From Bacteroidota bacterium (GTDB lineage Bacteria > Bacteroidota > Bacteroidia > Bacteroidales > ML635J-15), in NCBI GenBank assembly GCA_029558535.1, contig JAKQEK010000014.1, positions 62,001 through 126,000 of the forward strand: 64,000 nt of DNA. The letters run 5' to 3'. Below are positions 19,654 to 39,355 of the stretch, one piece after another; position 1 is the first letter of the stretch; each line of letters opens with the position of its first letter. The notes under the pieces were generated by a model. That model was not told where the DNA came from, made no database searches, and saw only the letters and a list, made by a program, of their open reading frames with translations. The position numbers were made by a program, and so were the translations under genes.

Positions 19654-19688
19654 TTATATTCAGAAGTAAAAATGGTAAACAAAATTTT
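19654..19688 (-). promoter_or_regulatory. Bipartite promoter-like element, copy 1 (HExxH gene)
   Basis: Minus strand AAAATTTTGTTTACC (19674-19688), 15 bases, then TATAA (19654-19658). The ATG lies 27 bases downstream. Four other genes in the next 20 kb carry the same element at the same spacing. Confidence 0.7.
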
Positions 19689-19740
19689 AGAGATTTCTAA
19701 TTATTTTATCTAAACCTTTATGATTTTGATAATGAGTTTA

Positions 19741-19785
19741 AATAAAAAACTTACCAACGAGTTTTTATTTAACGTTGGTAAGTTT
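19741..19785 (-). terminator. Intrinsic terminator
   Basis: A perfect 13-bp stem (19747-19759 with 19773-19785) with a 13-base loop is followed on the minus strand by TTTTTTATT. It ends transcription of the secreted-protein gene whose stop is at 19817. Confidence 0.85.
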
Positions 19786-19816
19786 CATAAAAACAAGAAA
19801 CCATGATAACATTTGA

Positions 19817-21364
19817 TTACAACTTAGATAATAATGGATCGCCCGGATATAATGACAATGCTTTCAAATAGCTCTTTTCAATTCCTTCAGAATATTTAAC
19901 ATTTTCCTGAAAAGGGGAAAATCTCTCTCCGGTTTTAGCGTTGTGAACGGTCAATGTTAAGAACATTGTATTTGAGTTTTCATTGTTTGTATATCCACAA
20001 TATATTTTATAATCAGGTCTGATATATTCAGCTTCTTCTGTCCCTGCTATGACGATATATTTTGCATTTAAATGCATTTTTACTAACTGTGTTGTAAAGT
20101 AACCTAACTTAGACTCATCAGGTAAATATATTAAAACTGATGACTCATTATTAAACCCAGAGTAGTTTGAAACTTTGCCGGCAATATTCTCACATAATCC
20201 ATAAAAAGAAGGTGTCAGTTGAGCTAAATCTGAGATTTTTATTTCAGCTATATATGTACTATCTGGATTAATTGTCAGTTTTATACTCTCTGTACAAAGA
20301 TATTCACCATCTGAATAAAGTTTTACAGGTAGATTAACATCGCAGGGGTCTAATCCATTAACCTGGATATCAAAAGATAGTAAATATTCTTTCTTGGTCT
20401 TTTCATACAAGTAGGAGCTCTTTAGAATTTTAATTTTATCACTGGGAGATTCAACTTTAATATTTGTTAGTTTTAAATCAATTTCATTATCCACAGGCTT
20501 TATAGTGCTGTTTACCTGAAAAACTCCAATTGGATTCAATGCTTGCAAGCTCTTTACATCTTGAAAAATCTTTGTTTTACTTATTGCTATTTTTGGAATT
20601 TTGTGTTTTACCCTTACATTATCCTTAAATGGAATAAACACATCTATTTTTGTGCTTAAAGTAAACAAACCCCTTGGTATATCAGGCTCAAGTGAAGCTA
20701 TCATATTTTCGGGCATTCCTATCTGTGTATCAGGATATGTACGATAAACATAACCCACAGACAATTCAACTTTATTAAATCTTACGGAAATATCTGCACC
20801 GGCATTATTAAAACCCGAAAAAAAGGATTTTGTTGAACCTGTAAAAGGATTTTCAAAATAATTGTAACTGACAGGCAAACAATAAAAATTAATATTAATT
20901 CCCGGATATGGTATGAGATTTATTCTGGATTTGTATCCATCTTTCGGTATTAGATCAAATAATGAAATACTCAAGCCCATTTTAAAAAGGCTTAAACTAG
21001 TTATATTTGTTGAAAAAGAATGAATTCCTCCATTTCCTTCATAGGCTTTAAATTTGTAATTGTTAAATCTGTGTCCAGTTATAGTAGTAGCATTTACGAT
21101 AATATTTAAGTATCTGTTCTTAGTAAGCATTTTACTATATTGTCCGATGTCAATACCATATTCAAAAAGCATTTTATCTGTTCCATTTAAAGGATAAAAT
21201 GTACCATATGCACTTATAAAACCAAGTCTGGATTGATTAATAAAAATCTTATCATAAGTTTCTTCTATATTATAAGCTTTATTATTCTTGACTTTAAAGT
21301 TCTGTGAATAAGCACTAGCGTATGCTATCACAGAAATTGCGAGTATTATTATTTTTGTTTTCAT
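19817..21364 (-). CDS. Secreted protein of unknown function (probable outer-membrane/periplasmic)
   Basis: 515 residues beginning with a clear signal peptide (MKTKIIILAISVIAYASAYSQ). Residues about 45-230 look like amphipathic beta strands with aromatic ends (GHRFNNYKFKAYEG, VELSVGYVYRTYP), suggesting a partial barrel or large beta domain. The region about 270-400 resembles beta-sandwich repeats, and the C-terminal 130 residues contain a mixed alpha/beta segment (LVKMHLNAKYIVIAGTEEAEY). I recognise no family. It follows the next described gene in the same direction, but a terminator lies between them (21386-21422), so expression may be partly independent. Confidence 0.7.
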   Translation of the reverse strand: MKTKIIILAISVIAYASAYSQNFKVKNNKAYNIEETYDKIFINQSRLGFISAYGTFYPLNGTDKMLFEYGIDIGQYSKMLTKNRYLNIIVNATTITGHRFNNYKFKAYEGNGGIHSFSTNITSLSLFKMGLSISLFDLIPKDGYKSRINLIPYPGININFYCLPVSYNYFENPFTGSTKSFFSGFNNAGADISVRFNKVELSVGYVYRTYPDTQIGMPENMIASLEPDIPRGLFTLSTKIDVFIPFKDNVRVKHKIPKIAISKTKIFQDVKSLQALNPIGVFQVNSTIKPVDNEIDLKLTNIKVESPSDKIKILKSSYLYEKTKKEYLLSFDIQVNGLDPCDVNLPVKLYSDGEYLCTESIKLTINPDSTYIAEIKISDLAQLTPSFYGLCENIAGKVSNYSGFNNESSVLIYLPDESKLGYFTTQLVKMHLNAKYIVIAGTEEAEYIRPDYKIYCGYTNNENSNTMFLTLTVHNAKTGERFSPFQENVKYSEGIEKSYLKALSLYPGDPLLSKL

Positions 21365-21385
21365 GACGATTTATTTTTAAAGTTA

Positions 21386-21422
21386 ATAAAAACTACTGTT
21401 CCGCACTAATACGGAACAGTAG
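21386..21422 (-). terminator. Intrinsic terminator
   Basis: Perfect 11-bp stem (21393-21403 with 21412-21422, arms CTACTGTTCCG/CGGAACAGTAG), 8-base loop, then TTTTTATT on the minus strand. It follows the stop at 21430 by 8 bases. Confidence 0.82.
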
Positions 21423-21429
21423 AAACAAT

Positions 21430-22830
21430 TTAATTAATCCCATTTTCACGCATAAACCTCTCTCTCTCTTTTAACTCCGGCACAATAGTATTCTTATCAG
21501 GAGTAAACCATGTAAGTCTGTGAATACTACCACTGACATTTAATGGCAAGCCAATCTCCTTTGCAATTAGTTCAACGACTTCAACCAGATCATATTGAGG
21601 TAATGTTGACCTATAGGAAATAATAACTAGATCACCTGAGTTAACGGTTGTCAAATCACAATATTTAAAATTTTCATCTTTTCTTAACCTGTTAAACAAT
21701 GCTCTAAGTTTTTCGTAATCATTATTAAAACTGTAGAAATACAAGGATAGTCTTTCACCGTTCGTTTCGCAATCAACTAATTCGCTTAGGTAAAGAGAAA
21801 GAATTCTGTCAAAATTATTTGTCATGGCATTTTCTAGAGCCTTCTCATAAGAAATGCCACTACCTTCAACTGTAATATTATTAATACTTCGGTGAATGAT
21901 CGGGTCAAAGAGGTCAACTGTCATTGAAACAATGTATGGGGTTTGACTTGAAGTTGATTTTTTAATATCTATTCTATCTAATAAAAGTATAAGGTTGCTA
22001 TTTGTATAAAACCCACATTTTCTTAAGAAGTTAAATTTTCTTTTAATAATTACATCTTCTGAATTTTCATAATTATCAACCTCTTCAAAATACTTGTCAA
22101 TGTCAAATATTTTAACGAAGGTTTCTTCATGGAGAACATGCATGTGATATTGGCCCAATGATCTTCTAAGTAATAACATTGCATAGAGATAGTTTGCGAT
22201 ATAATCCTCACCGTATTTCTCAATAATTTCTTCAGGATAATAAGCTCCAATAACAGGATAGTTAATAAACTTTCTATTTACATTTTCTGCATGTAATTTT
22301 AATAATTCAGCATTAAACTCTACCTCGTATTCAAACAGAGGATTACCGCCTGTAATACTACCGCCTTTTAGTTCTTGCAATTTAGTAAACTTCAAATAGT
22401 TCATTCCATACTTTTCATCAGAAAAAACATTTTGAACTAAAATGTTATAGCTACTTAATATTTCCCAGAAATAATCATTAAAAACCTCATCATACACATC
22501 TTTTCTAGCTGAATTTCTATCAAAACTTAATATTTTACCAGTCAATACAATTTTCCCATTGGGACTCGAATTATCTGCTTTTTGGGCACTAAAATTAGTG
22601 TAGGTAATGGGATTATACTCTGTTGAGCTACCTGAGCCATAAACAGATTCTCTTTGAGAATATAAACTAGTCGTTATAGTTGTCAGTAAAAATAATAAGG
22701 TAATGTTGATAATCGTATTAAAATTATTTAAAAGATTTTGGCTACACTTTAGGGTTTCGCCTTTCCCTGTAGAATCACTGTTCCGATAAAAACTGATCGG
22801 ATTTGTCGAGTTGAGATTTTTTGTTTTCAT
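21430..22830 (-). CDS. Secreted protein of unknown function with an extended N-terminus
   Basis: 466 residues. The only ATG in front is at 22830, which places a polar stretch of about 38 residues before a hydrophobic segment (INITLLFLLTTITTSLYSQ, about 40-58) that otherwise looks like a normal Bacteroidota signal peptide with the SQ cleavage end. Either the signal peptide has an unusually long n-region or translation starts at a non-ATG codon. The mature part is mixed alpha/beta. Repeated segments such as NGKIVLTGKILSFDRNSARKD and PYIVSMTVDLFDPII hint at domains that handle other lipoprotein or LPS-type components, but no family is recognised. Confidence 0.65.
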   Translation of the reverse strand: MKTKNLNSTNPISFYRNSDSTGKGETLKCSQNLLNNFNTIINITLLFLLTTITTSLYSQRESVYGSGSSTEYNPITYTNFSAQKADNSSPNGKIVLTGKILSFDRNSARKDVYDEVFNDYFWEILSSYNILVQNVFSDEKYGMNYLKFTKLQELKGGSITGGNPLFEYEVEFNAELLKLHAENVNRKFINYPVIGAYYPEEIIEKYGEDYIANYLYAMLLLRRSLGQYHMHVLHEETFVKIFDIDKYFEEVDNYENSEDVIIKRKFNFLRKCGFYTNSNLILLLDRIDIKKSTSSQTPYIVSMTVDLFDPIIHRSINNITVEGSGISYEKALENAMTNNFDRILSLYLSELVDCETNGERLSLYFYSFNNDYEKLRALFNRLRKDENFKYCDLTTVNSGDLVIISYRSTLPQYDLVEVVELIAKEIGLPLNVSGSIHRLTWFTPDKNTIVPELKERERFMRENGIN

Positions 22831-22874
22831 AATTAAATTGTTTAGTTATACAATGGTTACATATTTGAATTTAT

Positions 22875-24107
22875 CTAGTAACTCCACAAATTAAGCCTCA
22901 GTTTGTAAGCCATATCGTAATATTCTGCGGCTTTGATATAATTGCCCTTTAATGAATATACATCTGCCAGTTTTGTACATATTTGTTCACTAAAAGGGAA
23001 TTCGTCAGCACCTGCTAACAACAGATTTACGGCTTTATTTAACTTATTGGCAAAAATGAGTAAATCAGCGTGCTCAATAATTACACTTTCTATATCATCT
23101 GTGAGCTCATAAGCTTGTTTGATTTTACGTTCAGCTATATGCATTCTATTATTGTTTGCATAAAGTGAAGCTTCATAGATAATCTGATTCACTAGTTCGG
23201 CACGACAAAAAATAAAATAATCTTCCTCATCATCAAGATAGTAATTATAATAATCAGTATTTTCGGTAACGTACTCTTCATCACTATTATAATCAAATTC
23301 ATCGAATAAATTATAGTCAAAGCCAAACTCAATAGTATCGTTAGAATAGATTAATTCTAGAAGATATGACAATAATTGTGACAATTCATCTTCTTCTAAA
23401 ATTAGGGTACAGAAATCTTTATAACAGAGAGTTTCTGTATTATGTAAATATATAAAGCCACAGGTAACATCAACTCCAACGTTAATATTGGGTACCGGTT
23501 TGTCATAATACAATGTAAGCTCAGCAACTATTCCAACAACTTTTGCATCCTTAACACTAATCAAAGGGCTACCACTACTAGCGTAATATACAGGTGCTGT
23601 AAAAAATATAGAATTTCTGAGAGGAATTGTATCATCAGCAACATTTTCTCTATAACCTGCAATTATCCCGGTTGTTGCCAAATATGGGTAACCTGCAGTA
23701 TGACCTATTGCTAAAACTTCGTCACCTTTTTCTGCCTGGTTATCCGATAATTCAAGAAAATGAAATTCCTTACTGTCAGCGAAACTGATTTTAAAAAGTA
23801 TATAATCTTCTTCTTTAGAATACCCATAAATGGAATCAATAGAAAACAGATTCCCGTTAATATCCTGAACCATAAGGTCATTTGCATTCTCGAATACATG
23901 AAAACATGAAAGTGCAAACCCATCGGGACTTATCAAAAAGCCAGTTCCGACTAATTCATACGTATAATTATGGACAATTTTAACTACAGCTTTTTCCGAC
24001 TCTGATATCAAATCTGTTGAAGGAACTGCAAGTATAAGTGAATTAAAACAGAAAAGTATCTGTAGAACTGCTATTCCGATGATTCTGGCAATAATGTACT
24101 TTTTCAT
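22875..24107 (-). CDS. Secreted trypsin-like serine protease with C-terminal TPR repeats
   Basis: 410 residues with an N-terminal signal sequence ending near residue 28. The trypsin-like fold (S1/HtrA type) shows its triad: His70 in SCFHVF, Asp101 in EEDYILFKI, and Ser178 in ASSGSPL, where the usual GNSGGP has become a variant but keeps the Ser. An acidic, Tyr-rich linker spans about 245-275. The C-terminal 120 residues form TPR-like helices (HADLLIFANKLNKAVNLLLAG, KGNYIKAAEYYDMAYKL). No PDZ domain is present. It begins six bases after the zinc-ribbon gene and is cotranscribed with it from the bipartite promoter at 24386-24422. Confidence 0.85.
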   Translation of the reverse strand: MKKYIIARIIGIAVLQILFCFNSLILAVPSTDLISESEKAVVKIVHNYTYELVGTGFLISPDGFALSCFHVFENANDLMVQDINGNLFSIDSIYGYSKEEDYILFKISFADSKEFHFLELSDNQAEKGDEVLAIGHTAGYPYLATTGIIAGYRENVADDTIPLRNSIFFTAPVYYASSGSPLISVKDAKVVGIVAELTLYYDKPVPNINVGVDVTCGFIYLHNTETLCYKDFCTLILEEDELSQLLSYLLELIYSNDTIEFGFDYNLFDEFDYNSDEEYVTENTDYYNYYLDDEEDYFIFCRAELVNQIIYEASLYANNNRMHIAERKIKQAYELTDDIESVIIEHADLLIFANKLNKAVNLLLAGADEFPFSEQICTKLADVYSLKGNYIKAAEYYDMAYKLRLNLWSY

Positions 24108-24113
24108 AATACT

Positions 24114-24356
24114 TTAGTTTAAGATTATTAAAAATTCCTTTTGTGTTTTTCTCTCGAGTATTCCTACCATTCTGGTAGAACAAGCTCCGTGTTCGCTGCT
24201 CCAGTTTTGTTCGTCTTCGACCGGCACGTACACTCCGCTGTAAAACAACTCCTGCTTTGCTCCGCAGTGAGGACACTGGAATACTATATGCTTGTCGGTT
24301 GGAACTCCTAATCTTCTGTCGCATGAACTGCATTTTACCACTCTCTTGTTTTTCAT
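24114..24356 (-). CDS. Small zinc-ribbon protein
   Basis: 80 residues. The start MKNKRVVKCSSCDRRLGVP and the CPHCGAKQE knuckle give a two-CxxC zinc ribbon of about 35 residues; the remainder (YVPVEDEQNWSSEHG onward) is unfamiliar. Its base composition is noticeably richer in G+C than the surrounding genes, suggesting recent arrival or constraint. The ATG at 24356 lies 30 bases below the -10-like part of the bipartite promoter. A longer overlapping reading frame in another phase (24043-24381) was rejected. Probably cytoplasmic; binding to nucleic acid or protein is unknown. Confidence 0.65.
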   Translation of the reverse strand: MKNKRVVKCSSCDRRLGVPTDKHIVFQCPHCGAKQELFYSGVYVPVEDEQNWSSEHGACSTRMVGILERKTQKEFLIILN

Positions 24357-24385
24357 AATTCTCTGTTTTTGTGTTACGCAAATAC

Positions 24386-24422
24386 TAATACAGAGAATTC
24401 GGGAGGGTAAACAAAAATTTTT
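24386..24422 (-). promoter_or_regulatory. Bipartite promoter-like element, copy 2 (zinc ribbon/protease pair)
   Basis: Minus strand AAAAATTTTTGTTTACC (24406-24422), 15 bases, then TATTA (24386-24390), continuing GTATTTGCGTAA. One extra A and T extend the AT palindrome relative to the other copies. Confidence 0.75.
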
Positions 24423-24621
24423 GAGAATTATTTAAGATTTATTATTTTCTTAAGTATTAAACTTTCATACAATGCTTACTAATACATAAAAGGTAACGTT
24501 TTAAATTTATATTGTAAATTGTTGAAAGATATAACCAATCTAAATTAATTTTTCTATAAGATAACTTTAATTGGTAATATACTAATAATTGTTTAATTTA
24601 GCAGGGAATAAAGTTTACACC

Positions 24622-27600
24622 ATGGTAAAGAGCAATAAAATTATATTTTTTGTGACGATTTGGGTTTTCTTAACCTTTGCTATACACACAAAAGCACAAG
24701 AGAGCATTTTTGAATCAAGCAATAACTTCAGCTTAAATAATATTAAAAAATTTGTCGAAAACGGTGGCGATGTTAACTTGAAGGACAAAAACGGAGCCTC
24801 TGTTCTTATGTGGGCAGCTTATTACGGTGATATAGATGCTGTTAAATTTCTTGTAGAAAAAGGAGCAGACCCATCACAAAAAGGAGCAATTTATATAGAT
24901 ACGCTTGGCTCTACATATGGGAATTTATTAGCCATTGCTGCAGGAGAAGGCAACTTGGACTTATTGAAGTATTTTATTGAAAAATTAAAAATTGATGTTA
25001 ATGACAGGGAATTCAACCCAAATGATAGCACTGATAGTGGTTGGACAGCATTGCATTGGGCAGTTTATTCTGTTAACGAAAAAAGAATAGAAATCATTGA
25101 ATATTTATTGAATCAAAAAGAAATTAATGTAAATGTACAAGATAATAATGGGTACACTCCATTATTTAATTCTGTATTTAAAAATGATACTTTGTCATTT
25201 AAACTAATTTTATCGAACATTAACATAGATTTAAATAAACAATCAACTGATGATGGTAATACGGTTTTACATTATGCTGTTTATAGTGAATTACTGCCTT
25301 TTGTAAAAATGCTTTCTAATAAACCATCATTAAACATAAATTTACAAAACAAACTCGGATGTACAGCACTACATTACTGCGTTAATAACAATGACACAAC
25401 AATATTAGATATACTAATTAATGACAAGTATATTAATGCAAATATTCAAGATGAAAACGGATTTACACTATTTCACTATGCTGCTTATTTTGGAAAAGAA
25501 AAAATTATAGATTTTTTGTTAAAAAGCCCAAAAATAGATGTAAACTTAAAAAGTATTGATGGTTATACAGCCCTTCAAATTGCTATTATACAAAAGTACT
25601 TTAATATTTGCTCAAAACTAGTAAACAACCCAAGAATCAATATCAATGAGCAAACATATAAAGGGAATACGGCTTTACATTATGCAGTAAATTCAGGAGA
25701 CATTGGAATTCTTAATCTATTATTATCAAACAATAACTTAAATTTAAATATCAGAGGTGAAAAAGATTACACACCACTTAACTTAGCTATTATAAATAGT
25801 TTTAATGCTGCAATTGAACTTCTTCTTGCACATAAGGCAGATATAGATTTGGTTGATGAAGATGGCAGAAGTCCATTAATTAATTCGGTTGTTAATGACA
25901 ATTATGAAATAACTAAGATTTTATTGCAGAACAATGCTAACATGTACTTTATCGATAATAACTCATTCACAGCTCTACATATGGCTATTGAAAACAAAAA
26001 TCTTAAAATGGTTGAGTTATTTATTACAAATGATTTTGATTTGACGTTTAAAAATGAAATGGGTATTACTCCATTTCATTGGGCAGTAAGGAAAGGAGAT
26101 TTAAATATTATCAGTAAAATTTATTATACAGATAAAAACCTTGCTAAGGCACTAGACGTTAATGGTAGTTCTCCACTACATTGGGCAGTATATTACAATC
26201 ATTATAATGTAGTTGAGTTTCTTTTAAAAAATAAAGTAAGCCCTGATGTAAAAGATGATGCTTCATCAATACTTTCTCTATTTAAATATCAAAACACTGA
26301 TGAAGATTTTGAAATATTTCAAAATGAAACAAAAGCTGGCTTTACACCTCTACACTATGCTGTGTTTTTTGGATTTGATAATATTGTAAAACTATTATTA
26401 GAATACAATGCTAACATTAACGATAACGATAACATTTTAAGAATAGCACCAATTCATCTGGCTGTTACTCAGCAAAACTTCTCTTTAATTGAATTATTAG
26501 TTAAGCATAAAGCAAATATTAACTTGGTCAATTGTTTTGATTATTCTGTTTTGCATATAGCTATTATCTTAAATAATATTTCATTGGCACAAAAATTATT
26601 AGAGTATGGAGTTGATATAAATATTAATCCACAGTTCAAAGATACTCCATTACATCTTGCTGTATTTTTAAATAATTTAAAGATGGTAAAGTTCCTATGC
26701 GATCAAGGAGCTGATGTCAACCTTAAAAATGAGGATGGTTTTACTCCTATACATATTGCATTTACTCAAAACAATACTGAAATATTAGAAATTCTTTTTA
26801 ATTCAAATAGTTTTGATATTGAAAAATGTGAACAAAATTTTTATCTTAATCTAGCAATACAATTCAACAATGAGAAACTTGTTACAAAGATATTAAGCTT
26901 CAACCCTAATGTAAACCTTAATGACAATTTAATTGGAAGTCCAATACATTATGCCGTTTTATATGCAGACACAAATGTACTTAATATATTATTACCATAC
27001 TGCGAAAACATAGATTTACCTAATAAATATGGTTTAACTGCTTTGCAGTTGGCAGTTGAACAGAATAAAATTAGTCACGTAAAAATATTATTAGATAAAG
27101 GTGCCTCAGTTATGTCCTATCTTAAAACTGACCAAGGAAACAAATACAATTATCCTTTTGAAATTGCGGTGCAAAATAATAATCTTAGCATGTTGCGAAT
27201 TTTAATTGGACATCTTGATGAAAAAACAAAAGAATCAATTATTCAGGAAACAAACGTGTTATTGTTAGCTATATTAAATAACAATAAAGAAATATTCAAA
27301 TATTTAATCAGCGAGGTTGAATCTATATCACCGGCAAATTTTACGTACACTTTGTTAAATGATAATACAGATTTGTTTTTCTTATCTGAAATTATGAATC
27401 ATGATAATAATTTTGGAAACAAATTGAGTCCTTGTAAAACTTTCACTCCTTTAATTCTAGCAGCAATTTTTAATAACTTTGAAGCAGTTGAATTATTGTT
27501 GCAAAACAATACTCAAATACAAACTAAAACTATTTCAGAAAAAACAGTCGTAGATACTTGTCTTTCGCTAGGGCTAAAAAAAATGTATAATTATATAATA

Positions 27601-29868
27601 GGATATCCTAATGTTTCAAAACCTCACAACACATTCAAAAAAAACCTTCAAATAATTAATTCTTTACCATTATATGACTCGGTTAACTATGTAAATTATT
27701 TTATAACGGCTTATAATTCATTAAATGAAGAACTAGAGCCTAATTCTATTTTCTACTTATACAAGTTATCTGATCTATTGTACACAAACTTTAATAGAAA
27801 CTATTTAAACACTGAGTATTTCACAGACATTATTGATAGATTTGGAATAATTACAAATGAATTATCTAATAATAATAAATTACCTGAAACATCAACTTAT
27901 TTAAATCAACATAAAATCATGCTAGGCGATTTCTATGCTCAAATAAATAAACCTGACAGTGCATTAAAATATTATCATCTTGTATATAATGCAGATGAGC
28001 CTTTATTTTTAGGGGATTTAGATTTCAAAATTGGAATGATTTATACAGATATGCTATATAACAAAGACAGTTCATTATTTTATTTTACCAAAGCTTTATA
28101 TTCTAAGGAAACATTAAATCCCTTTTTAAATATAAACTCCAAAGCTTATATTGCCTCTTACGAATCTAAAGAAAGCTATTTCGACGAATATATTTCATTT
28201 CACGACGATATTGATTTCATATGGGCTTTTAGTCCTCCGAACTCCTTTGCACCGACAAATCCCGACTTTGTTTTTTCTAAATATTTTTCATATACATATC
28301 GAAAATCCAATCATGATTTAACTAATTTCAATGCATTAAAATATGTTATTAATACAAAATATCGAGGGTTAAAAAAAATAAATGAATATAGTAAATTTTC
28401 TACAGAATCGCAAGATTTAATAACAGTTGAAAACAATATGAGACTTAAAGAACTTTATAATTTGAACTATAAAATAGACTTGGATTATAAATCAAATACA
28501 AATAATGAAGAATATTATAAACAAAAAAATATCCTAAATAAAGAAATTAATACAATTATTAATACGGCTTGGAAAGCAAAGCCTAAAGAAAATAAGAATG
28601 TTTTCACAGATATTGATATTGTGTCAAAATTGCAAGAGAACGTAAAAGATAATGAGGTAATTATTGATTTTGTTAATTTCAAATTAATGAAATATGATAA
28701 TATAAATGTATCCACTGATTCAATAATATACGCAGCAATAATAATGAGACCAAACCAAAACTTACATTTTATACCATTATTTGAGGAAAAAGATTTAGAC
28801 AGGATTATAAAAAGAGAAGCTGGGAGTTCAGATGAAAATTACATTAGTAATTTATATTCTAATAACGGAGAAGACTTATATAAACTTATTTGGGAGCCAA
28901 TAACACCATATCTGGATGGAGTTGAGAATGTATATCTTTCTCCTGCAGGTTCTTTGTTCAAAATTGCTTTTAATGCAATTCCAATAAGCAAATATTCTGT
29001 GTTGGGAGACAAATATAAATTCAGATATTATATGAACAGTTCTTCAATGCTGGAAGAGGAAACTATTACTTTGGAAAATATAACTGTCTTTTACGATATT
29101 GATTATAATAGCCTAGACACAGCGATAAATAATGCATTACCTCAAATAGATTTTTTAGCAGAATCAGAAAAATCAGAAATTTCTGATATTTACGCTAACG
29201 AAAAGTCCGCATCTCAAATATTAAAACCATTTTCACATAGTAAATATCTTCCTGATAGTATTTTCAATGAGAGTAAAGTTAAAGATATAAATATCAAATT
29301 GTTTGATGGCCCAAATGCGACTAAATGCCAATTTCTTAAACTATCAGGCATAAAACAGAGTATAATACATTTTGACACACATGGAAAATATGTTTCATCT
29401 AATGAAAAAGATCATTATTCGGACAGCTACCGCATATATAAACACTCCAACCCAATGTATCGTTCTTACCTAGCAATGGCTGGCATCAACGACACTATTA
29501 CTGTAGGTAATGAAGCAATTTTAACCGCATATGAAATCTCGAACATTGATTTAAGTAATACTGAGCTAGTTGTACTTTCAGCATGTGAAACTGCTAAGGG
29601 TGACATTTTGGGCAATGAAGGAGTTTATGGTTTATTAAGAGGATTTAAAATAGCTGGCGTTGACTATATAATTGCAAGCTTATGGAGCGTTGATGCAAAA
29701 GCGAGTTTTGAATTTATGAAAATATTTTACAATAAATTATTTGAAGCACATTCAACAAACGATAGAATAAATATAAATAATATTTTCACAGAAACACAAA
29801 ATAAAATGCGACAAAATCCAAAATACTCAAGCCCTTATTACTGGGCTGCCTATATATTAATAAAATAA
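24622..29868 (+). CDS. Secreted ankyrin-repeat protein with C-terminal CHAT (caspase-like) protease domain
   Basis: 1748 residues from the ATG at 24622, preferred over a TTG 33 bases upstream because it begins a signal peptide (MVKSNKIIFFVTIWVFLTFAIHTKAQ). About 25 ankyrin repeats (motif TALHYAV...) fill residues 30-965. A helical, TPR-like region lies near 1095-1165, and a CHAT domain occupies about 1330-1748 with the His/Cys dyad His1587 (HFDTHGKYV) and Cys1655 (LSACETAKGD). CHAT domains are caspase-like cysteine proteases of clan CD; bacterial relatives act in regulated proteolysis, including CRISPR-linked Craspase. Here the signal peptide puts the protein in the periplasm or outside. It converges on the anti-sigma-like gene, with stops 22 bases apart. 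The substrate is unknown. Confidence 0.88.
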   Translation: MVKSNKIIFFVTIWVFLTFAIHTKAQESIFESSNNFSLNNIKKFVENGGDVNLKDKNGASVLMWAAYYGDIDAVKFLVEKGADPSQKGAIYIDTLGSTYGNLLAIAAGEGNLDLLKYFIEKLKIDVNDREFNPNDSTDSGWTALHWAVYSVNEKRIEIIEYLLNQKEINVNVQDNNGYTPLFNSVFKNDTLSFKLILSNINIDLNKQSTDDGNTVLHYAVYSELLPFVKMLSNKPSLNINLQNKLGCTALHYCVNNNDTTILDILINDKYINANIQDENGFTLFHYAAYFGKEKIIDFLLKSPKIDVNLKSIDGYTALQIAIIQKYFNICSKLVNNPRININEQTYKGNTALHYAVNSGDIGILNLLLSNNNLNLNIRGEKDYTPLNLAIINSFNAAIELLLAHKADIDLVDEDGRSPLINSVVNDNYEITKILLQNNANMYFIDNNSFTALHMAIENKNLKMVELFITNDFDLTFKNEMGITPFHWAVRKGDLNIISKIYYTDKNLAKALDVNGSSPLHWAVYYNHYNVVEFLLKNKVSPDVKDDASSILSLFKYQNTDEDFEIFQNETKAGFTPLHYAVFFGFDNIVKLLLEYNANINDNDNILRIAPIHLAVTQQNFSLIELLVKHKANINLVNCFDYSVLHIAIILNNISLAQKLLEYGVDININPQFKDTPLHLAVFLNNLKMVKFLCDQGADVNLKNEDGFTPIHIAFTQNNTEILEILFNSNSFDIEKCEQNFYLNLAIQFNNEKLVTKILSFNPNVNLNDNLIGSPIHYAVLYADTNVLNILLPYCENIDLPNKYGLTALQLAVEQNKISHVKILLDKGASVMSYLKTDQGNKYNYPFEIAVQNNNLSMLRILIGHLDEKTKESIIQETNVLLLAILNNNKEIFKYLISEVESISPANFTYTLLNDNTDLFFLSEIMNHDNNFGNKLSPCKTFTPLILAAIFNNFEAVELLLQNNTQIQTKTISEKTVVDTCLSLGLKKMYNYIIGYPNVSKPHNTFKKNLQIINSLPLYDSVNYVNYFITAYNSLNEELEPNSIFYLYKLSDLLYTNFNRNYLNTEYFTDIIDRFGIITNELSNNNKLPETSTYLNQHKIMLGDFYAQINKPDSALKYYHLVYNADEPLFLGDLDFKIGMIYTDMLYNKDSSLFYFTKALYSKETLNPFLNINSKAYIASYESKESYFDEYISFHDDIDFIWAFSPPNSFAPTNPDFVFSKYFSYTYRKSNHDLTNFNALKYVINTKYRGLKKINEYSKFSTESQDLITVENNMRLKELYNLNYKIDLDYKSNTNNEEYYKQKNILNKEINTIINTAWKAKPKENKNVFTDIDIVSKLQENVKDNEVIIDFVNFKLMKYDNINVSTDSIIYAAIIMRPNQNLHFIPLFEEKDLDRIIKREAGSSDENYISNLYSNNGEDLYKLIWEPITPYLDGVENVYLSPAGSLFKIAFNAIPISKYSVLGDKYKFRYYMNSSSMLEEETITLENITVFYDIDYNSLDTAINNALPQIDFLAESEKSEISDIYANEKSASQILKPFSHSKYLPDSIFNESKVKDINIKLFDGPNATKCQFLKLSGIKQSIIHFDTHGKYVSSNEKDHYSDSYRIYKHSNPMYRSYLAMAGINDTITVGNEAILTAYEISNIDLSNTELVVLSACETAKGDILGNEGVYGLLRGFKIAGVDYIIASLWSVDAKASFEFMKIFYNKLFEAHSTNDRININNIFTETQNKMRQNPKYSSPYYWAAYILIK

Positions 29869-29890
29869 TAAAATTATTACTTTATAGGTA

Positions 29891-30844: not shown

Positions 30845-30937
30845 CTTGTTTTTTATTTTCAATCATTCTCAATCTTTAATAATGTAAACTACTGCTAATC
30901 AATTACTTTAATTTTATCAAAACCAATAATCTTAAAA

Positions 30938-32668
30938 CTATTTAATTCCAAAATTTGCAACTAGTTCGTCCCATATATTTATCTTACTAATAATTTCTCT
31001 TTCATCTGCTCTATAATTGCATTTTTCGTAAACACAATCTGCAATTTTTTCTTTAGAATATTTTGCCCCAATGGCAAATATTATAATATTTCTTTGTAAC
31101 TCGTCAAAGTTTTGCAATTTGGACCGTAATTTAGTCCTTGCATTATCCCAAAACTTTATAATAGATTCCAACTCAACTGTGTTAAAATCAAATTGACCAT
31201 CAGCAACCAAATAATCTAGAATTTGTTTTTCTTCAAGTTTCCTCATTTTCTTTAATACAATTAATAGTTTATTTTTATCAGTACATTTAATAAATATTTT
31301 TACCAATGAATCTGTTATAGAAACAAAGAAAAACCAATCATGCAAAACTTCTGCAAACGAAGGGATTTCTTCTTGATTTGATGGAGTTTCCGTTTTTTTC
31401 TTATATATAAACCACCTATTTAGACAATCATAACAATATTTATGACTAATATTTTCACTTTGATTATAGCTTATTAACTTATCTGCCAATAGTTTCCAGT
31501 AAAGAAAACAAGAATTTTCTATCTCAATAGCACAAGGAGTATCTAAAGATAAAACACTTGACAAATGATGTTCATTTACAGTTATGTTTCTTATATAATT
31601 TGACAAAATTTCTGTTTGTATCTCAATCGGGACAAAATAATTAAATGCCTTTTTGAAAATACTAATATTCTCTTTACTCCACCTGTGAATTATATTTCTT
31701 GTAGCAACAGATTCAACATTGTACCCATATTTGTAATAATTTAAAATCAAAACTCTAAACGAATCAGGTATAAGCATTAACGCATAAGTCTTTAACATCG
31801 TTGATTCGTTTGATATGTCATTTTCTTTATCATCACTATCTTCATGATGTTTCTGGTTCAGATGTATATCATTTAATTGATTAAAATGAGTAAGTTCGAT
31901 TGAAAAGATGCGTTTAGATGCATTAAGGAATCTTAATTCAATTGCGGATTTATTGCAAAATTTTAATTTGCCTGATATTACATCATATTTAAATTTTTCG
32001 TAGGTATCATGTATTATATCGTCCAGGATTTCTTGTGTGTTTTCCAAATACCAGTCTAAACACTTTTGTTTTGAAGTACTTGTAAAGTCATTTTTATATG
32101 GACCTTTAGCTCTTTTGTTGTTTTTCACATCTATTTTTTGCAACACAGCTATTTCTTGAGAAACCGCATCAATATTAACATCAGTATCTTTCTTATTTCG
32201 ATTAATATTCGAGCTAGTATATCGAAATATTGATTTTTTTACTAACTCATCTTTATTGTTAATTTCGTTTTTAATAGATTCTTCAAACAATGAATATATA
32301 AAGGCATTATAGCTATCCTTATCTATGGGACTATTGTCTATACAATCATAATCAATCTGAATTAAAGAAATTATTAGCTGCATCTTTAATAAAAAGGTAA
32401 AACCTGTATCATCACTAATATCACCATTCGAATAAAGATTAACAATACTTTCTGCAAGAAACTTAAAAAGTGCCGGATTGCTTTTATCAGCTATATTAGA
32501 GAAAAATTTAAAATAAAAAGGCTTGATCTGTTGTTGATTATATCTTTTATAAACCTCTGGACCGAATTTTAATATTATTTTTTTGCAATTTTCAAAATCT
32601 TTCCCCTTAAGTTTATTCTCATAAGTTTCGTGAAAAGTTTCCCAATTGTGTTTGATATTATCATCCAT
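30938..32668 (-). CDS. Large protein with degenerate sigma-70-like segments, candidate partner of the anti-sigma
   Basis: 576 residues, no signal peptide or membrane segment. The section at about 203-262 (CLDWYLENTQEILDDIIHDTYEKFKYD...) is reminiscent of sigma region 2 in Bacteroidota ECF factors. The section at about 292-330 (TYALMLIPDSFRVLILNYYKYGYNVESVATR) is reminiscent of region 4. An N-terminal 200-residue helical domain and a C-terminal 240-residue helical domain with a possible HTH near 535-565 make it three times the size of an ECF sigma factor. The likeness is weak, so the call rests partly on its position upstream of an anti-sigma-like gene. It could instead be a protein that only looks sigma-like. 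No copy of the bipartite promoter lies upstream. Confidence 0.4.
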   Translation of the reverse strand: MDDNIKHNWETFHETYENKLKGKDFENCKKIILKFGPEVYKRYNQQQIKPFYFKFFSNIADKSNPALFKFLAESIVNLYSNGDISDDTGFTFLLKMQLIISLIQIDYDCIDNSPIDKDSYNAFIYSLFEESIKNEINNKDELVKKSIFRYTSSNINRNKKDTDVNIDAVSQEIAVLQKIDVKNNKRAKGPYKNDFTSTSKQKCLDWYLENTQEILDDIIHDTYEKFKYDVISGKLKFCNKSAIELRFLNASKRIFSIELTHFNQLNDIHLNQKHHEDSDDKENDISNESTMLKTYALMLIPDSFRVLILNYYKYGYNVESVATRNIIHRWSKENISIFKKAFNYFVPIEIQTEILSNYIRNITVNEHHLSSVLSLDTPCAIEIENSCFLYWKLLADKLISYNQSENISHKYCYDCLNRWFIYKKKTETPSNQEEIPSFAEVLHDWFFFVSITDSLVKIFIKCTDKNKLLIVLKKMRKLEEKQILDYLVADGQFDFNTVELESIIKFWDNARTKLRSKLQNFDELQRNIIIFAIGAKYSKEKIADCVYEKCNYRADEREIISKINIWDELVANFGIK

Positions 32669-32838
32669 TAGTATTTTTTTTTACAATTTATTCTTTTGAT
32701 CATTACATGGGAACATACCTTCCTATCATTCGATTTTATACCTGTCATTTCTTTTTGATTGACTTAGTTGTTTAATTATCTTGCTAAAATAAATATTATT
32801 TATGAATTTATAAAATATTAAATTATTCGATAAATTAA

Positions 32839-34182: not shown

Positions 34183-34227
34183 AATTACAGTTTTTAAGTT
34201 AGACATAAATTTTATTCTTTAAATATT

Positions 34228-34262
34228 TAATACTCTTTTAATCTTTTAGTAAACATAATTTT
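34228..34262 (-). promoter_or_regulatory. Bipartite promoter-like element, copy 3 (lectin-Hint gene)
   Basis: Minus strand AAAATTATGTTTACT (34248-34262; one mismatch in the AT palindrome), 15 bases, then TATTA (34228-34232). Confidence 0.62.
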
Positions 34263-34277
34263 CTTTACAAGTAAATT

Positions 34278-35348
34278 TTAATCAAACAATAACTCGAATT
34301 CATCAATTTCCTCTTCAGCTTCATCGTAATACATATCATCTGATTGTTCTTCTTCCTCAACGTCATAATAAATTTCATCCGCGTAATCTTTTTCAGTTGT
34401 GATATGACTATAATCAGGCACTATAACATATGCCTCAATTATACATTCAATATGATCATAACTAAGCCATAAATAGCCGTTATCTCCCCAGTAAATACCA
34501 TAAGAATTTAATATTTTAAAAGCTCTTCTGTTATCATCATAACCAACAATCAACATGGCATGACAACCATCCGGTTCTTTAGTATAATCGGGCTTCCATA
34601 CTTCATTACCCAAATAATAAAAATCTTCATCAGTATCAACAGCTATAATAATAGGATCTCCTCTATAAAGAACATTTTTTAGAGTCTTTACACTTGTTGT
34701 ATTAACCGAATAATAGCTTTTAATTCTATATTTTTTCGCCTTTTCAATCTGTGACTCATCAGGTATATTATAACAGTTACAACCTGAAAAATAATAGGGC
34801 ATATCAGACCATTTGCAAACTCCATTTTTCATTATAAAATTAAAAGCTCCAATAGTATCATAATAGGTTTCAAAATATAAACCTGAATTACAATCATTAG
34901 TAGTTTTTGTTTGGTTATATAAAAATGCTGGGCTAAACACTTTGTTATAGAGTTTATTATATCCTTGTTCATCATTGAAATAATAGCTCATAGCACCATA
35001 AGCTATTGCCCATGCAGCACAAGACCCCTGATAATAGCCTTGTCCATAAGGTTCAGGAGGAGGTGTATTTAGCACAAATTTTACAGGTAATACAGGTAAT
35101 TGGTAATCATTTACAAGAGCAGAAGTTCCTTTTCCAACCAAATATATTTTGAATTTATCTAAGCTTTTTTTTGCTCCGGAATTTACTTTATATCCAATAT
35201 AAACATCTTGTGATTGATATTCAGAAACATTGCTCTGTTTTTCTTTAGAATATAAATCATCAGAAAACAATGATGTATTATATCCGAATCTCAAGAAACC
35301 ACTGGAAAGTACTATAAGTAACAGACAGTATAAAGTAAACTTTTTCAT
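34278..35348 (-). CDS. Secreted papain-like (C1 family) cysteine peptidase with acidic tail
   Basis: 356 residues with an N-terminal signal sequence. The papain triad is complete: Gln107 and Cys110 in QGSCAAWA, His263 in DGCHAMLIVGYDD, and Asn281 in KILNSYGIYWGDNGYLWL. Residues 50-95 may act as a short propeptide. The last 35 residues are extremely acidic and Tyr-rich (EIYYDVEEEEQ, DEAEEEIDEFELLFD), resembling the acidic linker in the trypsin-like protease of the same region. It has its own copy of the bipartite promoter (35400-35434) and lies just upstream of the lectin-Hint gene on the same strand. Likely extracytoplasmic; substrate unknown. Confidence 0.85.
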   Translation of the reverse strand: MKKFTLYCLLLIVLSSGFLRFGYNTSLFSDDLYSKEKQSNVSEYQSQDVYIGYKVNSGAKKSLDKFKIYLVGKGTSALVNDYQLPVLPVKFVLNTPPPEPYGQGYYQGSCAAWAIAYGAMSYYFNDEQGYNKLYNKVFSPAFLYNQTKTTNDCNSGLYFETYYDTIGAFNFIMKNGVCKWSDMPYYFSGCNCYNIPDESQIEKAKKYRIKSYYSVNTTSVKTLKNVLYRGDPIIIAVDTDEDFYYLGNEVWKPDYTKEPDGCHAMLIVGYDDNRRAFKILNSYGIYWGDNGYLWLSYDHIECIIEAYVIVPDYSHITTEKDYADEIYYDVEEEEQSDDMYYDEAEEEIDEFELLFD

Positions 35349-35399
35349 GACTTTACGATTTAGTTAAAAAATCATTTAATTATCACTCGCTTACTTAGT

Positions 35400-35434
35400 T
35401 AATACTTGTTTATTCTTTAGGTAAACAAAATTTT
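35400..35434 (-). promoter_or_regulatory. Bipartite promoter-like element, copy 4 (papain-like peptidase gene)
   Basis: Minus strand AAAATTTTGTTTACC (35420-35434), 15 bases, then TATTA (35400-35404). Confidence 0.75.
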
Positions 35435-35484
35435 CAATATTTATTCGAATTTGTAAAAAAACAAGCTCGGGGTAAAGCAAAATA

Positions 35485-38400
35485 CTATCTATTCTTCTTG
35501 TTTTTTCTCTTGTTTTTTCTCTTATTCTTCTTTTCCTTTTTGATTAGTTTTTTATTTGTTTTATTTATATTACGAAATTCTTCATAAGTTGTATCCAATG
35601 TTTCAATGATATATTTTTCATGTTTACCAAGTAGTTTTTGAAAAATCAAATTTAGCAAACCCCTTCCCTCAGCGTAAACTCTAATTGAATCATCCTTGTA
35701 TATTACATCAAAACAGTAGCTTTGTCCAAAACCATTGAAAGGATATAAAAACAGTTTTAAATAAAGCGTTTTTTCATAATACTCACCAGAAACCAATAAT
35801 GTAAAACAGTCGTTAATTACTGTATTTGTTTGTTCAAGAATAATTATTGGAACAGTATCATGCTCATTCATTATAGAATCAACCATTTTTAAATTCAATT
35901 CAAATTCTTTAACATGCATAGTTTTTGACAACAATTGCGAAATATTAGCCTCAGTAATAACAAAATTAATAAAACGAGGAACTTCAAAAGAGAAATCATC
36001 TAATTTAATAGACATTCGAATCTTACTACTTGAGTCTGAACTAATTTGGAATTTGGAAATATTTAGATTATTGATTATATCAACTATAGAACCTGATGAA
36101 TCCGAAAATGCGACAAACTCGTTGAGTTGAATATCTTCTGCTAAAATATTATATTTTTCTCCTTCTGTATAATCTAATTTAAATGGGACATTATTCAGTT
36201 TGCCTTCAAAATCCAAAGATAAATCAGTGGAGTCGCTTATTATGGAGTATTTTAAGTTTCTCAAATACACACCAATATTGTAATCATATCCATATACTGA
36301 GGGTGTATCATCATTTTCCCTATTTTTCGCCTTTCCGTTTTTCTTATGATCTAAATCGGTTTTCTTTTCTTTAACAGAATCTTTATAACTAAACTTAAAA
36401 TCACTCAACGAACCTACAAAATTAAATTCAGACATTTCTATAATCCCGTCAAGTGATAATTCTATCATATCATATTCAACATCTTTTGCAATAACATCGC
36501 CACTTAACGATATATCAAAATCTGTAATTACAGATGAAATTTTATTGTAAAGTTCATCTGTAATATACCCTGATTTCATTGCCACATTTAATATTTCTGA
36601 AAACTGTAAGAATTCTGCATTTAAGTTTTGAATCGCGAAATCAAAAATATCTATGTCATTATTACTAAAGGCTATATTGCTTGAATAAAATAGTCCGTCA
36701 AAAATCCCAAATTGAATTTCATTTACTGTTAATTGACCTTTGTTATAAACAGGGTCAGCCTTAATAGTTTTGATATTTAATAAAGTATCATTATTCATGT
36801 TGGTTCCATCTTTACTGTTCATCAAAAACAAATTTTCAATAAAAAAAATCAGCTTTCCATATTCAATGGAAAAGTTATCTGTCTCATGTTTAATATTGGA
36901 ATCATATTGCTGGTGGTTGGTATTTTTTAAATTGTTAGCCAGTTCTTTAAAACTATTCTTATGATATTCTGTGATTGAATCAATACCGGTCAAATTGCCA
37001 TTGAAAAAACAATCAATTTTCTTAAAATATGCAAATGATTCCGGAATAACAATTTTGAAAAGATTACTCGTATTGTCAAAACTAAAATCTATAGTGGCGG
37101 AGATACTATCAATATAAGGATAAATTTTTTCACTGGAATTTATAAATTTTGCTATTGACAAACCTGATTCAGATTCAATTCTGTACAAATCAATATTTTT
37201 CAGATTTATTAAATATTGAGATAAGAATGTACTATCAAAAATCGTCATCCCCGAAACAGATGATTCTACACCATAAAAATTAAAATCACAATTTGACAGT
37301 ATTAAGTTGTTGTTAAAAAACCTTAAATCTGAAATAAAGTCAGTTATCTTTAAATCTGTATTGCTTTTGGAATTAGCCAAAACACTTTCATAATACGGGC
37401 TACAACTGTCAATTTGTTTCTTAATTCTTACCAATATTGACTGAAAGTCATTTACATTAATTTCTATTTGAAAAAGAATATTATCAAATGCTAAGCTTAA
37501 ATTAATTTCTAATCTATCAAGAAAAGTTTTTTGAGATTTTTCAGAATTCTCTTTAACATTATTACCATTTTTAAATATTTCTGACAAATTATTTAAATCA
37601 ACTGTATCCGCAGAAATAAAAGCAGATAATTTGATCAATGAATCATTAAAAAAATGATTAAAATCGTAGGCTTCACCAGTCAGAAAAAACCTGTTATTAT
37701 TAAAAATAAAATTCGATTCAGTAATACGAAAATTTGAGCTTATTAGACTTAAAGTTGCATTTATATTTTGAAATTTAGAACTAAAATCCTTAATCTTTAG
37801 AGTAGCTGAGTAAATTTGAGCATCCTCAATCTCGATTTTCTTTAATATTTTCGAAAGCCCTTCAATTGAGAAATCACTTAACAAGGCTTTTATTTTGATA
37901 CTTTTTGTTGACATTCTTCCCGATAATTCTTCGATTATTTCTGAATTTTGCAATTGTTTCAAATAAGATAAATCTGCATCAAAACCTATATCAATATCTA
38001 ATTCAGAATCGGAATTTATACTGCTCAGCACAATTTCTTTATTTGAAAATAAAACTGAATTCAAAGCTTTAATATTTAAATCTTTTATGATAACAGAATC
38101 ACTTTCTTCTCCGGCAATCGAATCGTAAGAATATACTAAGCAAAAATCAGAATCAATTTGTTTCAAACCTTTAAGATTAAAAAAACAGTTGTCTGTTGTT
38201 CCTGATAAAGCGCAATCAGATTTAAAAAATAGCTTTTCAAAATCATTAGCGTTATCGCATTCCCAGGCAAATTTTAAATTTTGTAATACGACATTTATCT
38301 CGTTGTTTGTTGCAGTTGATAATAATAAACTATCAAAATCATAATCTAACATTTCTGAAATATCTGAACAGACATTGCTGGTAAGCGGGAAACCGAAATT

Positions 38401-39276
38401 TCCATATATTTCTCCTGAATAATTTTCGGGGCCATCCTCAACTGTAAGCAAAAATTCGTTAAAAAATATATCTCCAAAATATGCTGTATCGGGAATATCG
38501 AGATTAACTAAATAATTATCTGATTCTGATTTGTATATGTATTTTATTCCAGAATTAAATATCTCAAATTCCCTATTAGCTAACTCCTGATCATTAAAAC
38601 GATATAATATTAAATTTCCATTACATTGCTTAATCATAAAACAATAGGTATCTAAATAATTATTATTTAAACAATCCTTAGTGTCTTCAATAAACATAGA
38701 AACGTCAAGTTTTGCATAATATATAAAAGCACTGATTTGGTACTCGGAGATTTGTTCCAAATTAAAATCATCAATATGTGATTTATAGTTATTGTAAGAA
38801 ATATAACAACTATCCAATTCACAATTGTGTACTAAAATATTTACATTATGTGGTTCAGATTCCGAATACTTATCAAAAAAAGTATCACCATCATCAAACA
38901 AATTGACATTAAAATCAGCCCCATAAAACGAAATATTGTTTATTTGAATCGTATCTGTAAATAGTGATTTAATATTAATATCTATAACAGTATTCTTTGA
39001 TTTAATCAAGTCTTGTAGCTCCCCATATTTCTCATCAGACATTTCAAAATTGTCAATAACTAAACAAACAGAAGACTCATCTAAATTAAAATCGTATTGT
39101 ATATCTCGTATTTTGATGCTTTTGCCTGTATATTCTGATAGAAAATAACCAATTATTTTTGGATTATGCCCTGCATAACTCAACGACAAAAATAAAATAC
39201 ATGACAATAAAAGAGATTGCCAGATAACATATACAATTACCAATAAAATTGACTTAATATTTTTCTTTGTTTTCAT
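35485..39276 (-). CDS. AsmA-like / DUF748-type large envelope protein
   Basis: 1263 residues. One N-terminal transmembrane segment (ILLVIVYVIWQSLLLSCILFLSL) is followed by the typical opening of AsmA-like proteins, where short helices carry the IIGYFLSEYTGKSIKIRDIQYDF pattern. A very long run of beta strands then repeats VxxxNxxx and LxxxxIxI-type strands, as in bridge-like lipid-transfer or AsmA proteins that span the periplasm. The C-terminus ends in a strongly basic tail (KKEKKNKRKNKRKNKKNR). AsmA proteins influence outer-membrane lipid homeostasis. It is transcribed alone from a copy of the bipartite promoter. Confidence 0.62.
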   Translation of the reverse strand: MKTKKNIKSILLVIVYVIWQSLLLSCILFLSLSYAGHNPKIIGYFLSEYTGKSIKIRDIQYDFNLDESSVCLVIDNFEMSDEKYGELQDLIKSKNTVIDINIKSLFTDTIQINNISFYGADFNVNLFDDGDTFFDKYSESEPHNVNILVHNCELDSCYISYNNYKSHIDDFNLEQISEYQISAFIYYAKLDVSMFIEDTKDCLNNNYLDTYCFMIKQCNGNLILYRFNDQELANREFEIFNSGIKYIYKSESDNYLVNLDIPDTAYFGDIFFNEFLLTVEDGPENYSGEIYGNFGFPLTSNVCSDISEMLDYDFDSLLLSTATNNEINVVLQNLKFAWECDNANDFEKLFFKSDCALSGTTDNCFFNLKGLKQIDSDFCLVYSYDSIAGEESDSVIIKDLNIKALNSVLFSNKEIVLSSINSDSELDIDIGFDADLSYLKQLQNSEIIEELSGRMSTKSIKIKALLSDFSIEGLSKILKKIEIEDAQIYSATLKIKDFSSKFQNINATLSLISSNFRITESNFIFNNNRFFLTGEAYDFNHFFNDSLIKLSAFISADTVDLNNLSEIFKNGNNVKENSEKSQKTFLDRLEINLSLAFDNILFQIEINVNDFQSILVRIKKQIDSCSPYYESVLANSKSNTDLKITDFISDLRFFNNNLILSNCDFNFYGVESSVSGMTIFDSTFLSQYLINLKNIDLYRIESESGLSIAKFINSSEKIYPYIDSISATIDFSFDNTSNLFKIVIPESFAYFKKIDCFFNGNLTGIDSITEYHKNSFKELANNLKNTNHQQYDSNIKHETDNFSIEYGKLIFFIENLFLMNSKDGTNMNNDTLLNIKTIKADPVYNKGQLTVNEIQFGIFDGLFYSSNIAFSNNDIDIFDFAIQNLNAEFLQFSEILNVAMKSGYITDELYNKISSVITDFDISLSGDVIAKDVEYDMIELSLDGIIEMSEFNFVGSLSDFKFSYKDSVKEKKTDLDHKKNGKAKNRENDDTPSVYGYDYNIGVYLRNLKYSIISDSTDLSLDFEGKLNNVPFKLDYTEGEKYNILAEDIQLNEFVAFSDSSGSIVDIINNLNISKFQISSDSSSKIRMSIKLDDFSFEVPRFINFVITEANISQLLSKTMHVKEFELNLKMVDSIMNEHDTVPIIILEQTNTVINDCFTLLVSGEYYEKTLYLKLFLYPFNGFGQSYCFDVIYKDDSIRVYAEGRGLLNLIFQKLLGKHEKYIIETLDTTYEEFRNINKTNKKLIKKEKKNKRKNKRKNKKNR

Positions 39277-39302
39277 ATTGCAAATATTTATTACGCAAGT
39301 AA

Positions 39303-39337
39303 TAATATTAAGATCTCTAATAAGTAAACAAAATTTT
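39303..39337 (-). promoter_or_regulatory. Bipartite promoter-like element, copy 5 (AsmA-like gene)
   Basis: Minus strand AAAATTTTGTTTACT (39323-39337), 15 bases, then TATTA (39303-39307), continuing TTACTTGCGTAA, which shares TTGCGTAA with copy 2. Confidence 0.75.
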
Positions 39338-39355
39338 TAGTCTGTATATTATTGT

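Follow-up and report, generated by a model that had tools for sequence, protein, structure and literature searches.

The closest described system to the locus considered here is Craspase of type III-E CRISPR (clustered regularly interspaced short palindromic repeats), comprising the TPR-CHAT protein Csx29, Csx30 and CASP-sigma. In that system the CHAT protease cuts Csx30, an inhibitor of CASP-sigma, and the CASP-sigma motif has three strong matches inside the locus and few outside (PMC10028731). RseA/DegS, cited in the same paper, and the FecR-type extracytoplasmic function (ECF) systems likewise have a membrane anti-sigma protein that holds an ECF sigma factor. Caspase-type protease genes beside sigma genes had earlier been noted by genome context in the EACC2 systems, in which caspase-like proteins, and also trypsin-like peptidases, occur near ECF sigma factors (PMC8195603), and in metacaspase operons with sigma-70 factors (PMC3501461); the available parts of these accounts concern caspase or metacaspase domains and contain no CHAT domain, anti-sigma gene or promoter element. 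Here, a cluster of about 20 kb was analyzed in a 64,000-nucleotide stretch of contig JAKQEK010000014.1 from a Bacteroidota bacterium (hereafter the window), in which five copies of a bipartite element (P1 to P5) precede protease genes and their neighbors. Judged from sequence, the five elements are best read as the -35/-10 pairs of an alternative sigma factor, a reading that the analysis supports. The preliminary description of the window had named neither the sigma factor nor its regulators; the genes concerned, encoding a protein in the sigma slot, an anti-sigma protein and a CHAT protease, probably lie inside the cluster itself.

As in Craspase, protease, inhibitor and presumed sigma factor are encoded together, and the elements are bound to their cluster much as the CASP-sigma motif matches are local to theirs. 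The Craspase chain from CHAT protease through Csx30 to CASP-sigma makes an equivalent chain plausible in the window. The window differs from Craspase in its membrane anti-sigma-like inhibitor, its ankyrin repeats and its unrecognizable sigma-slot protein, and the genes presumed to be targeted encode proteases and envelope proteins in place of cas1. No Cas7-11 effector or Csx30 was matched by PADLOC among ten cluster proteins, a search that did not extend to CRISPR arrays. Unlike the RseA/DegS and FecR systems, the window has a CHAT protease as the presumed trigger and a regulon confined to one cluster. With the EACC2 systems and metacaspase operons it shares a caspase-type protease gene beside a presumed sigma gene.

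All five elements were recovered on the minus strand at the coordinates originally assigned to them (Table 1), and the reported variants were borne out, P2 (24386-24422) being longer by one A and one T, P3 carrying a single mismatch and one second block reading TATAA. The two blocks are separated by exactly 15 bases in 5/5 elements, as had been claimed, and the pattern TTTTGTTTACY-N(14-16)-TATWA matched four of the five exactly, against a shuffle expectation of 0.01. Distances to the ATG do vary, although not over the 27-52 bases previously given; they measured 26, 29, 21, 51 and 26 bases for P1 to P5, with 45 bases from P3 to the next ATG. A downstream sequence common to two copies, TTGCGTAA, was found at an equal offset from TATTA in both. 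The proposed distinction from the TAnnTTTG promoters also held, since no TTTG follows TATTA and the box is present in 0/5 elements; the second blocks read TATAATAA, TATTAGTA, TATTAAAT, TATTAACT and TATTATTA, and thus lack the TAnnTTTG -7 box of the Bacteroidetes housekeeping consensus as given in the portion of PMC9723704 available. Mean pairwise identity of the spacers was 0.31, compared with 0.31 expected from composition, so that the copies are not recent duplicates and the blocks have been kept by function. The segment from 24001 to 40000 has a G+C content of 27-29%.

The elements were restricted to the cluster. A weight matrix derived from these elements gave them 31-35 bits, and the next best site in the window reached 11.0. 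The genome-wide gapped scan suggested in the preliminary description was run with AAAATTTTGTTTACY-N15-TATWA, and at no more than one mismatch it returned five sites in the 5.81-Mb genome bin (88% complete, 4.6% contamination), all of them in the cluster. With up to three mismatches, 44 sites were obtained (3 exact, 2 with one, 2 with two and 37 with three), those with two or three mismatches all lying outside the cluster; as the reversed pattern gave 60 sites in the same genome, these 2 + 37 sites represent background. The two sites with two mismatches and one looser match outside the cluster (C232) fall within open frames of 262-345 amino acids. Further sites could exist, since the bin may lack about 12% of the genome. 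The core alone, TTACY-N15-TATWA, is less distinctive, with seven window sites (the five elements, 41484 on the plus strand and 23245 on the minus strand) and 1-3 sites at other spacings. Among genome contigs of 84,980 species, the exact element was found in 17 stretches of at most 8 kb, with one match each, from unrelated phyla.

The arrangement of regulator genes in the cluster recurs in other genomes. CHAT proteins are common in the order, their domain being detected in 159 of 295 genomes, and a census was made of 96 stretches with a CHAT open reading frame (ORF), the window included. These were not a random sample: 19 regions were chosen partly by long frames or tandem hits, 60 by CHAT score rank and 15 as CHAT-rich or remaining hits. 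Anti-sigma-type genes were recognized with a profile made from 19 proteins whose genes follow CHAT-linked sigma genes, and one was present within 5 kb of CHAT in 24 other loci, 19 of which are in the profile by construction. Scores were at least 117 bits at 22 of the 24 loci, and 36 and 27 bits at L196 and L197. Seven further matches of 15-27 bits (L114, L130, L134, L168, L169, L173 and L187) were left out of the count, as they score best over the TPR part of the profile, at positions above 95; the window protein and those of L129 (10969), L196 and L197 match from positions 2-10 onward. A recognizable sigma gene was located near CHAT in 23 of the 24 loci, with the sigma and anti-sigma genes of L154 on opposite sides of CHAT. 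The layout of the window, with the anti-sigma gene tail to tail with CHAT at no more than 700 bases, was found in 12 other loci (L129, L138, L143, L165, L167, L172, L175, L176, L177, L182, L196 and L197). At L197, the sigma slot, between the anti-sigma-type gene and the upstream genes, holds a 261-amino acid protein (L197:2944-3729) that, as in the window, is unrecognized by sigma profiles; this protein is a candidate bridge to the sigma-slot protein of the window. A separate arrangement was seen at L123 (4190-10308), where a frame judged caspase-like by eye (no Pfam match) and sigma, anti-sigma and TPR-CHAT genes form a row on one strand.

Within the window itself, the anti-sigma-type protein (29891-30862) scored 26.1 bits against this profile, compared with 10.5 for the best of 1,000 shuffles and 8.9 for the next of 49 window ORFs. 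The match spans profile positions 2-100, covering the N-terminal cytoplasmic segment and the membrane helix of the family. Across the 295 genomes of the order, the sole other match, made by its N-terminal part, was to the N-terminal part of a FecR-type protein (genome G150, 1.1e-4), a likeness to the FecR systems, and the corresponding gene lies directly behind an ECF sigma region 4. In the window, the 3' ends of the anti-sigma-type gene and the CHAT gene face each other, 23 bases apart. The CHAT domain of the latter (24589-29868) contains its cysteine in an LSACET motif and its histidine in DTHG, the second recognized by eye, and the protein is probably exported, as predicted from a signal-like N-terminus seen by eye. 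No sigma gene was found near the second CHAT gene of the same genome (C342).

Inspection by eye of regions upstream of CHAT-linked sigma genes pointed to GTATTACCTTTT...GATAA. When 205 upstream regions of 19 sigma-CHAT loci were scanned, TTACY-N15-GATWA was present at 13 sites, whereas other spacings from 8 to 23 gave 0-2 sites and shuffled sequences averaged 0.58 and never exceeded 3. Two such sites were obtained from the remaining 61 CHAT loci, a set that includes L138 and L177, both later found to have sigma genes; over whole stretches the counts were 22 sites in 279 kb for the sigma-CHAT loci versus 16 in 951 kb. The 13 sites, upstream of sigma genes or their neighbors, are spread over L188, L180, L159, L135, L144 and L152, and five of them precede the sigma gene itself. 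In ten whole genomes, exact class motifs were at the CHAT locus in 3/3 cases for G278, 1/1 for G248, 3/4 for G148 and 1/2 for G185, and none was found in G187, G119, G238 or the window's own genome, the last result being in keeping with the changed second block of the window. All five window elements contain the class core, TTACY followed by a second block after exactly 15 bases. The earlier proposal of an alternative-sigma -35/-10 pair is thus supported by the position of the blocks upstream of genes, their fixed spacing, the absence of TTTG and the TTACY-N15 motif of some CHAT-linked sigma loci. One genome of 3.9 Mb, G228 (L152), has 26 exact copies of TATTACYTTTT-N10-SGATWA and 31 when up to one mismatch is allowed, compared with 1 for the reversed control, and this species seems to have turned the CHAT-linked promoter class into a genome-wide regulon.

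The gene in the sigma slot (30938-32668) lies 75 bases before the anti-sigma gene on the same strand, directly ahead of it. Its product of 576 amino acids (P0001) had one relative, P0002 (593 amino acids, 53% identity), in a search of about 5.8 billion proteins; it was found in 0/60 other related genomes, and peptide patterns detected it in no viral or genome contigs. Profiles identified neither sigma region 2 nor sigma region 4 in it, hhalign gave no significant result, and a search with residues 195-350 returned only the protein itself. Peak Smith-Waterman scores for windows in residues 201-350 were z 3.5 in P0001 versus 1.1 in P0002, and against the CHAT-linked sigma factors residues 201-300 gave z 2.9 and 0.6. 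Sigma-like stretches first seen by eye were rejected, being unsupported by profile, pairwise and structure tests. None of the direct tests identified the protein as a sigma factor, and its candidacy as reader of the elements is therefore drawn from its position. Elsewhere, a CHAT-linked sigma factor of 288 amino acids (L117:13196-14062) was seen to match region 4 and to carry an additional segment at its N-terminus, IIKKVYSRFRHEVLSGKL, which resembles IIHDTYEKFKYDVISGKL in the 576-amino acid protein at a level that is not significant.

We consider it rather probable that the elements form a cluster-confined regulon whose reader, encoded at 30938-32668, is held by the anti-sigma protein until the CHAT protease cuts this inhibitor. 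The proposal builds on the recurrent layout, the anti-sigma match, the fixed spacing and confinement of the elements, and the presence of TTACY-N15 in six loci. The sigma slot of the CHAT module would be filled by a very divergent protein, which the membrane anti-sigma protein would bind and hold back; cleavage of the outer part of this inhibitor by the CHAT protease, which is probably exported, would free the reader to start transcription at the five elements. A broader interpretation, possible though we would lean slightly against it, is that the 576-amino acid protein represents the first of a new class of transcription-initiation factors and replaced the ECF sigma factor in a CHAT/anti-sigma module and reads TTACY-N15-TATTA, creating a self-contained, protease-switched regulon of secreted proteases that belongs to a widespread set of CHAT-switched sigma modules, many with one promoter geometry. 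Such a set was not described as such in the open-licence literature found, in which a search for CHAT together with sigma and anti-sigma factors in Bacteroidetes returned nothing. To our knowledge, the substrates of most CHAT proteins have not been established; the recurrent module, with its shared promoter geometry, suggests the anti-sigma protein as one such substrate and offers the promoter as a reporter. The module would extend the CHAT-to-sigma logic of Craspase to envelope signaling without CRISPR and, if the 576-amino acid protein does read these promoters, would include a polymerase specificity factor invisible to current profiles.

Several results weigh against the regulon as proposed. 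The 576-amino acid protein matched no protein family and no sigma profile, with Pfam, NCBIfam and PDB all returning nothing. The CHAT-sigma profile gave it -1.4 bits, reached by 245/496 shuffles; with a profile of 15 ECF proteins from its own genome, picked from 24 frames, its best stretch (459-544) scored 5.2 bits, reached by 2/499 shuffles, and that of P0002 -0.3 bits, reached by 138/500. Full ECF profile scores were reached by 259/499 shuffles for the 576-amino acid protein and 461/500 for P0002. Two structure models were of low confidence (predicted local distance difference test scores of 33 and 46), and one fold search produced no match. Neither the sigma-slot gene nor the CHAT gene is directly preceded by an element; the 170 bases 5' of 30938-32668 contain no class promoter, the nearest element upstream of both this gene and the anti-sigma gene being P3. 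The CHAT protein of the window has ankyrin repeats, whereas the relatives examined in detail have TPR repeats. The strict class motif occurs in only 6/19 sigma-CHAT loci, leaving 13 without a strict site, and in G285 and G228 just 2/6 and 2/26 exact sites are at the CHAT locus, the rest being scattered over the genome, so that the class is not always local. The second block in the window is TATTA or TATAA versus GATWA in the class, and the T-run of the class is missing from the window spacers. Spacings near 15-16 bases are, moreover, ordinary for ECF promoters.

The failure of every sigma profile on the 576-amino acid protein would be expected if the elements were alternative-sigma promoters read by an ordinary ECF factor and this protein did something else. 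The genome encodes at least 15 ECF-type proteins, one of which lies some 15 kb outside the cluster, at window positions 3414-3914, and is a candidate reader. A factor acting genome-wide would be expected to have other sites, however, and none was found outside the cluster at one mismatch or fewer; the gene beside the anti-sigma gene is, in addition, a recognizable sigma gene in 23/24 other CHAT loci, with CHAT lying between the two in L154. We therefore regard this explanation as unlikely.

The TTTTG found 21 bases before TATTA is compatible with housekeeping-type promoters, as the TTG-to-TA distance of Bacteroidetes housekeeping promoters is near 21 bases, and a dedicated activator could then bind AAAATTTTGTTTAC over the -33 region; inverted GTAAA/TTTAC seen by eye in two upstream regions would suit such a protein. 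The TAnnTTTG box is absent from 5/5 elements, though, in other genomes TTACY-N15 occurs at sigma-CHAT loci without AAAATTTTG, and no DNA-binding regulator was encoded among the 12 minus-strand cluster proteins run on Pfam, making an activator quite improbable. That the first blocks are nearly identical and confined to one low-G+C segment (27-29%) could also mean that the elements serve as binding sites, or belong to a local repeat family, and have some role other than promotion. Unrelated spacers, a second block conserved at a fixed distance and the location of every copy 21-51 bases before a start codon argue against this, and we give it very little credence. The alternative-sigma promoter, read from within the cluster, is retained as the preferred explanation.

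Table 1. Elements and genes of the cluster, with window coordinates.
Feature	Position	Strand	Context and evidence
Element P1	19654..19688	minus	5' of the HExxH gene; exact match to the 35-base pattern
Element P2	24386..24422	minus	5' of the zinc-ribbon, trypsin-like and 21430-22830 genes; one mismatch at 24386-24420
Element P3	34228..34262	minus	5' of the lectin-Hint gene; one mismatch
Element P4	35400..35434	minus	5' of the papain-like protease gene; exact match
Element P5	39303..39337	minus	5' of the AsmA-like gene (label from the preliminary description); exact match
HExxH protein, 378 amino acids	18491..19627	minus	downstream of P1; HELCH motif by eye
466-amino acid protein, no known family	21430..22830	minus	last gene of the P2 unit
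Trypsin-like (HtrA-type) protease, 410 amino acids	22875..24107	minus	P2 unit; Trypsin_2 6.4e-19
Zinc-ribbon protein, 80 amino acids	24114..24356	minus	first after P2; weak zinc-ribbon matches below curated cut-offs
Ankyrin-repeat CHAT protein, 1759 amino acids, predicted protease	24589..29868	plus	CHAT 7.3e-39, Ank_2 7.6e-130
Anti-sigma-type protein, 323 amino acids	29891..30862	minus	CHAT-linked anti-sigma profile, 26.1 bits
576-amino acid protein, predicted reader of the elements	30938..32668	minus	predicted from position only
Ricin-lectin/Hint protein, 455 amino acids	32839..34206	minus	downstream of P3; RicinB_lectin_2 4.9e-9
Papain-like protease, 356 amino acids	34278..35348	minus	downstream of P4; Peptidase_C1 3.2e-15
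Large envelope protein, 1263 amino acids (AsmA-like in the preliminary description)	35485..39276	minus	downstream of P5

The response probably takes place at the cell surface or beyond it, given that the genes under the elements include those for proteases of secreted appearance, an envelope protein and a lectin-Hint protein. The HExxH protein matched no Pfam family, the PT-HINT match of the lectin-Hint protein (0.0028) is below cut-off, and the 1263-amino acid protein had no Pfam match over cut-off. Among the minus-strand genes from 18491 to 39276, that at 19817-21364 has no element directly before it; a hairpin (21393-21422) lies ahead of it, 3' of the gene at 21430-22830. Relatives of the C-terminal part of the 466-amino acid protein were found in 5/294 other genomes (L189-L193), where the genes around them form a set that recurs and encodes lipoproteins and exported proteins (178, 387-435 and about 280-370 amino acids); no sigma profile match was found there. 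L138 and L177 both encode, near their sigma, anti-sigma and CHAT genes, an endonuclease-like protein and a membrane protein of very large size (1414 and 1447 amino acids); the 1263-amino acid window protein is similar to these membrane proteins in size, with no sequence match found. A type IX secretion system sorting tail was noted in the window and, together with the relatives that have FecR-type proteins, points to Bacteroidota. A relative of the papain-like protease (L206:10439-11836, 2.7e-27) was also encoded in one of the stretches selected by a CHAT gene.

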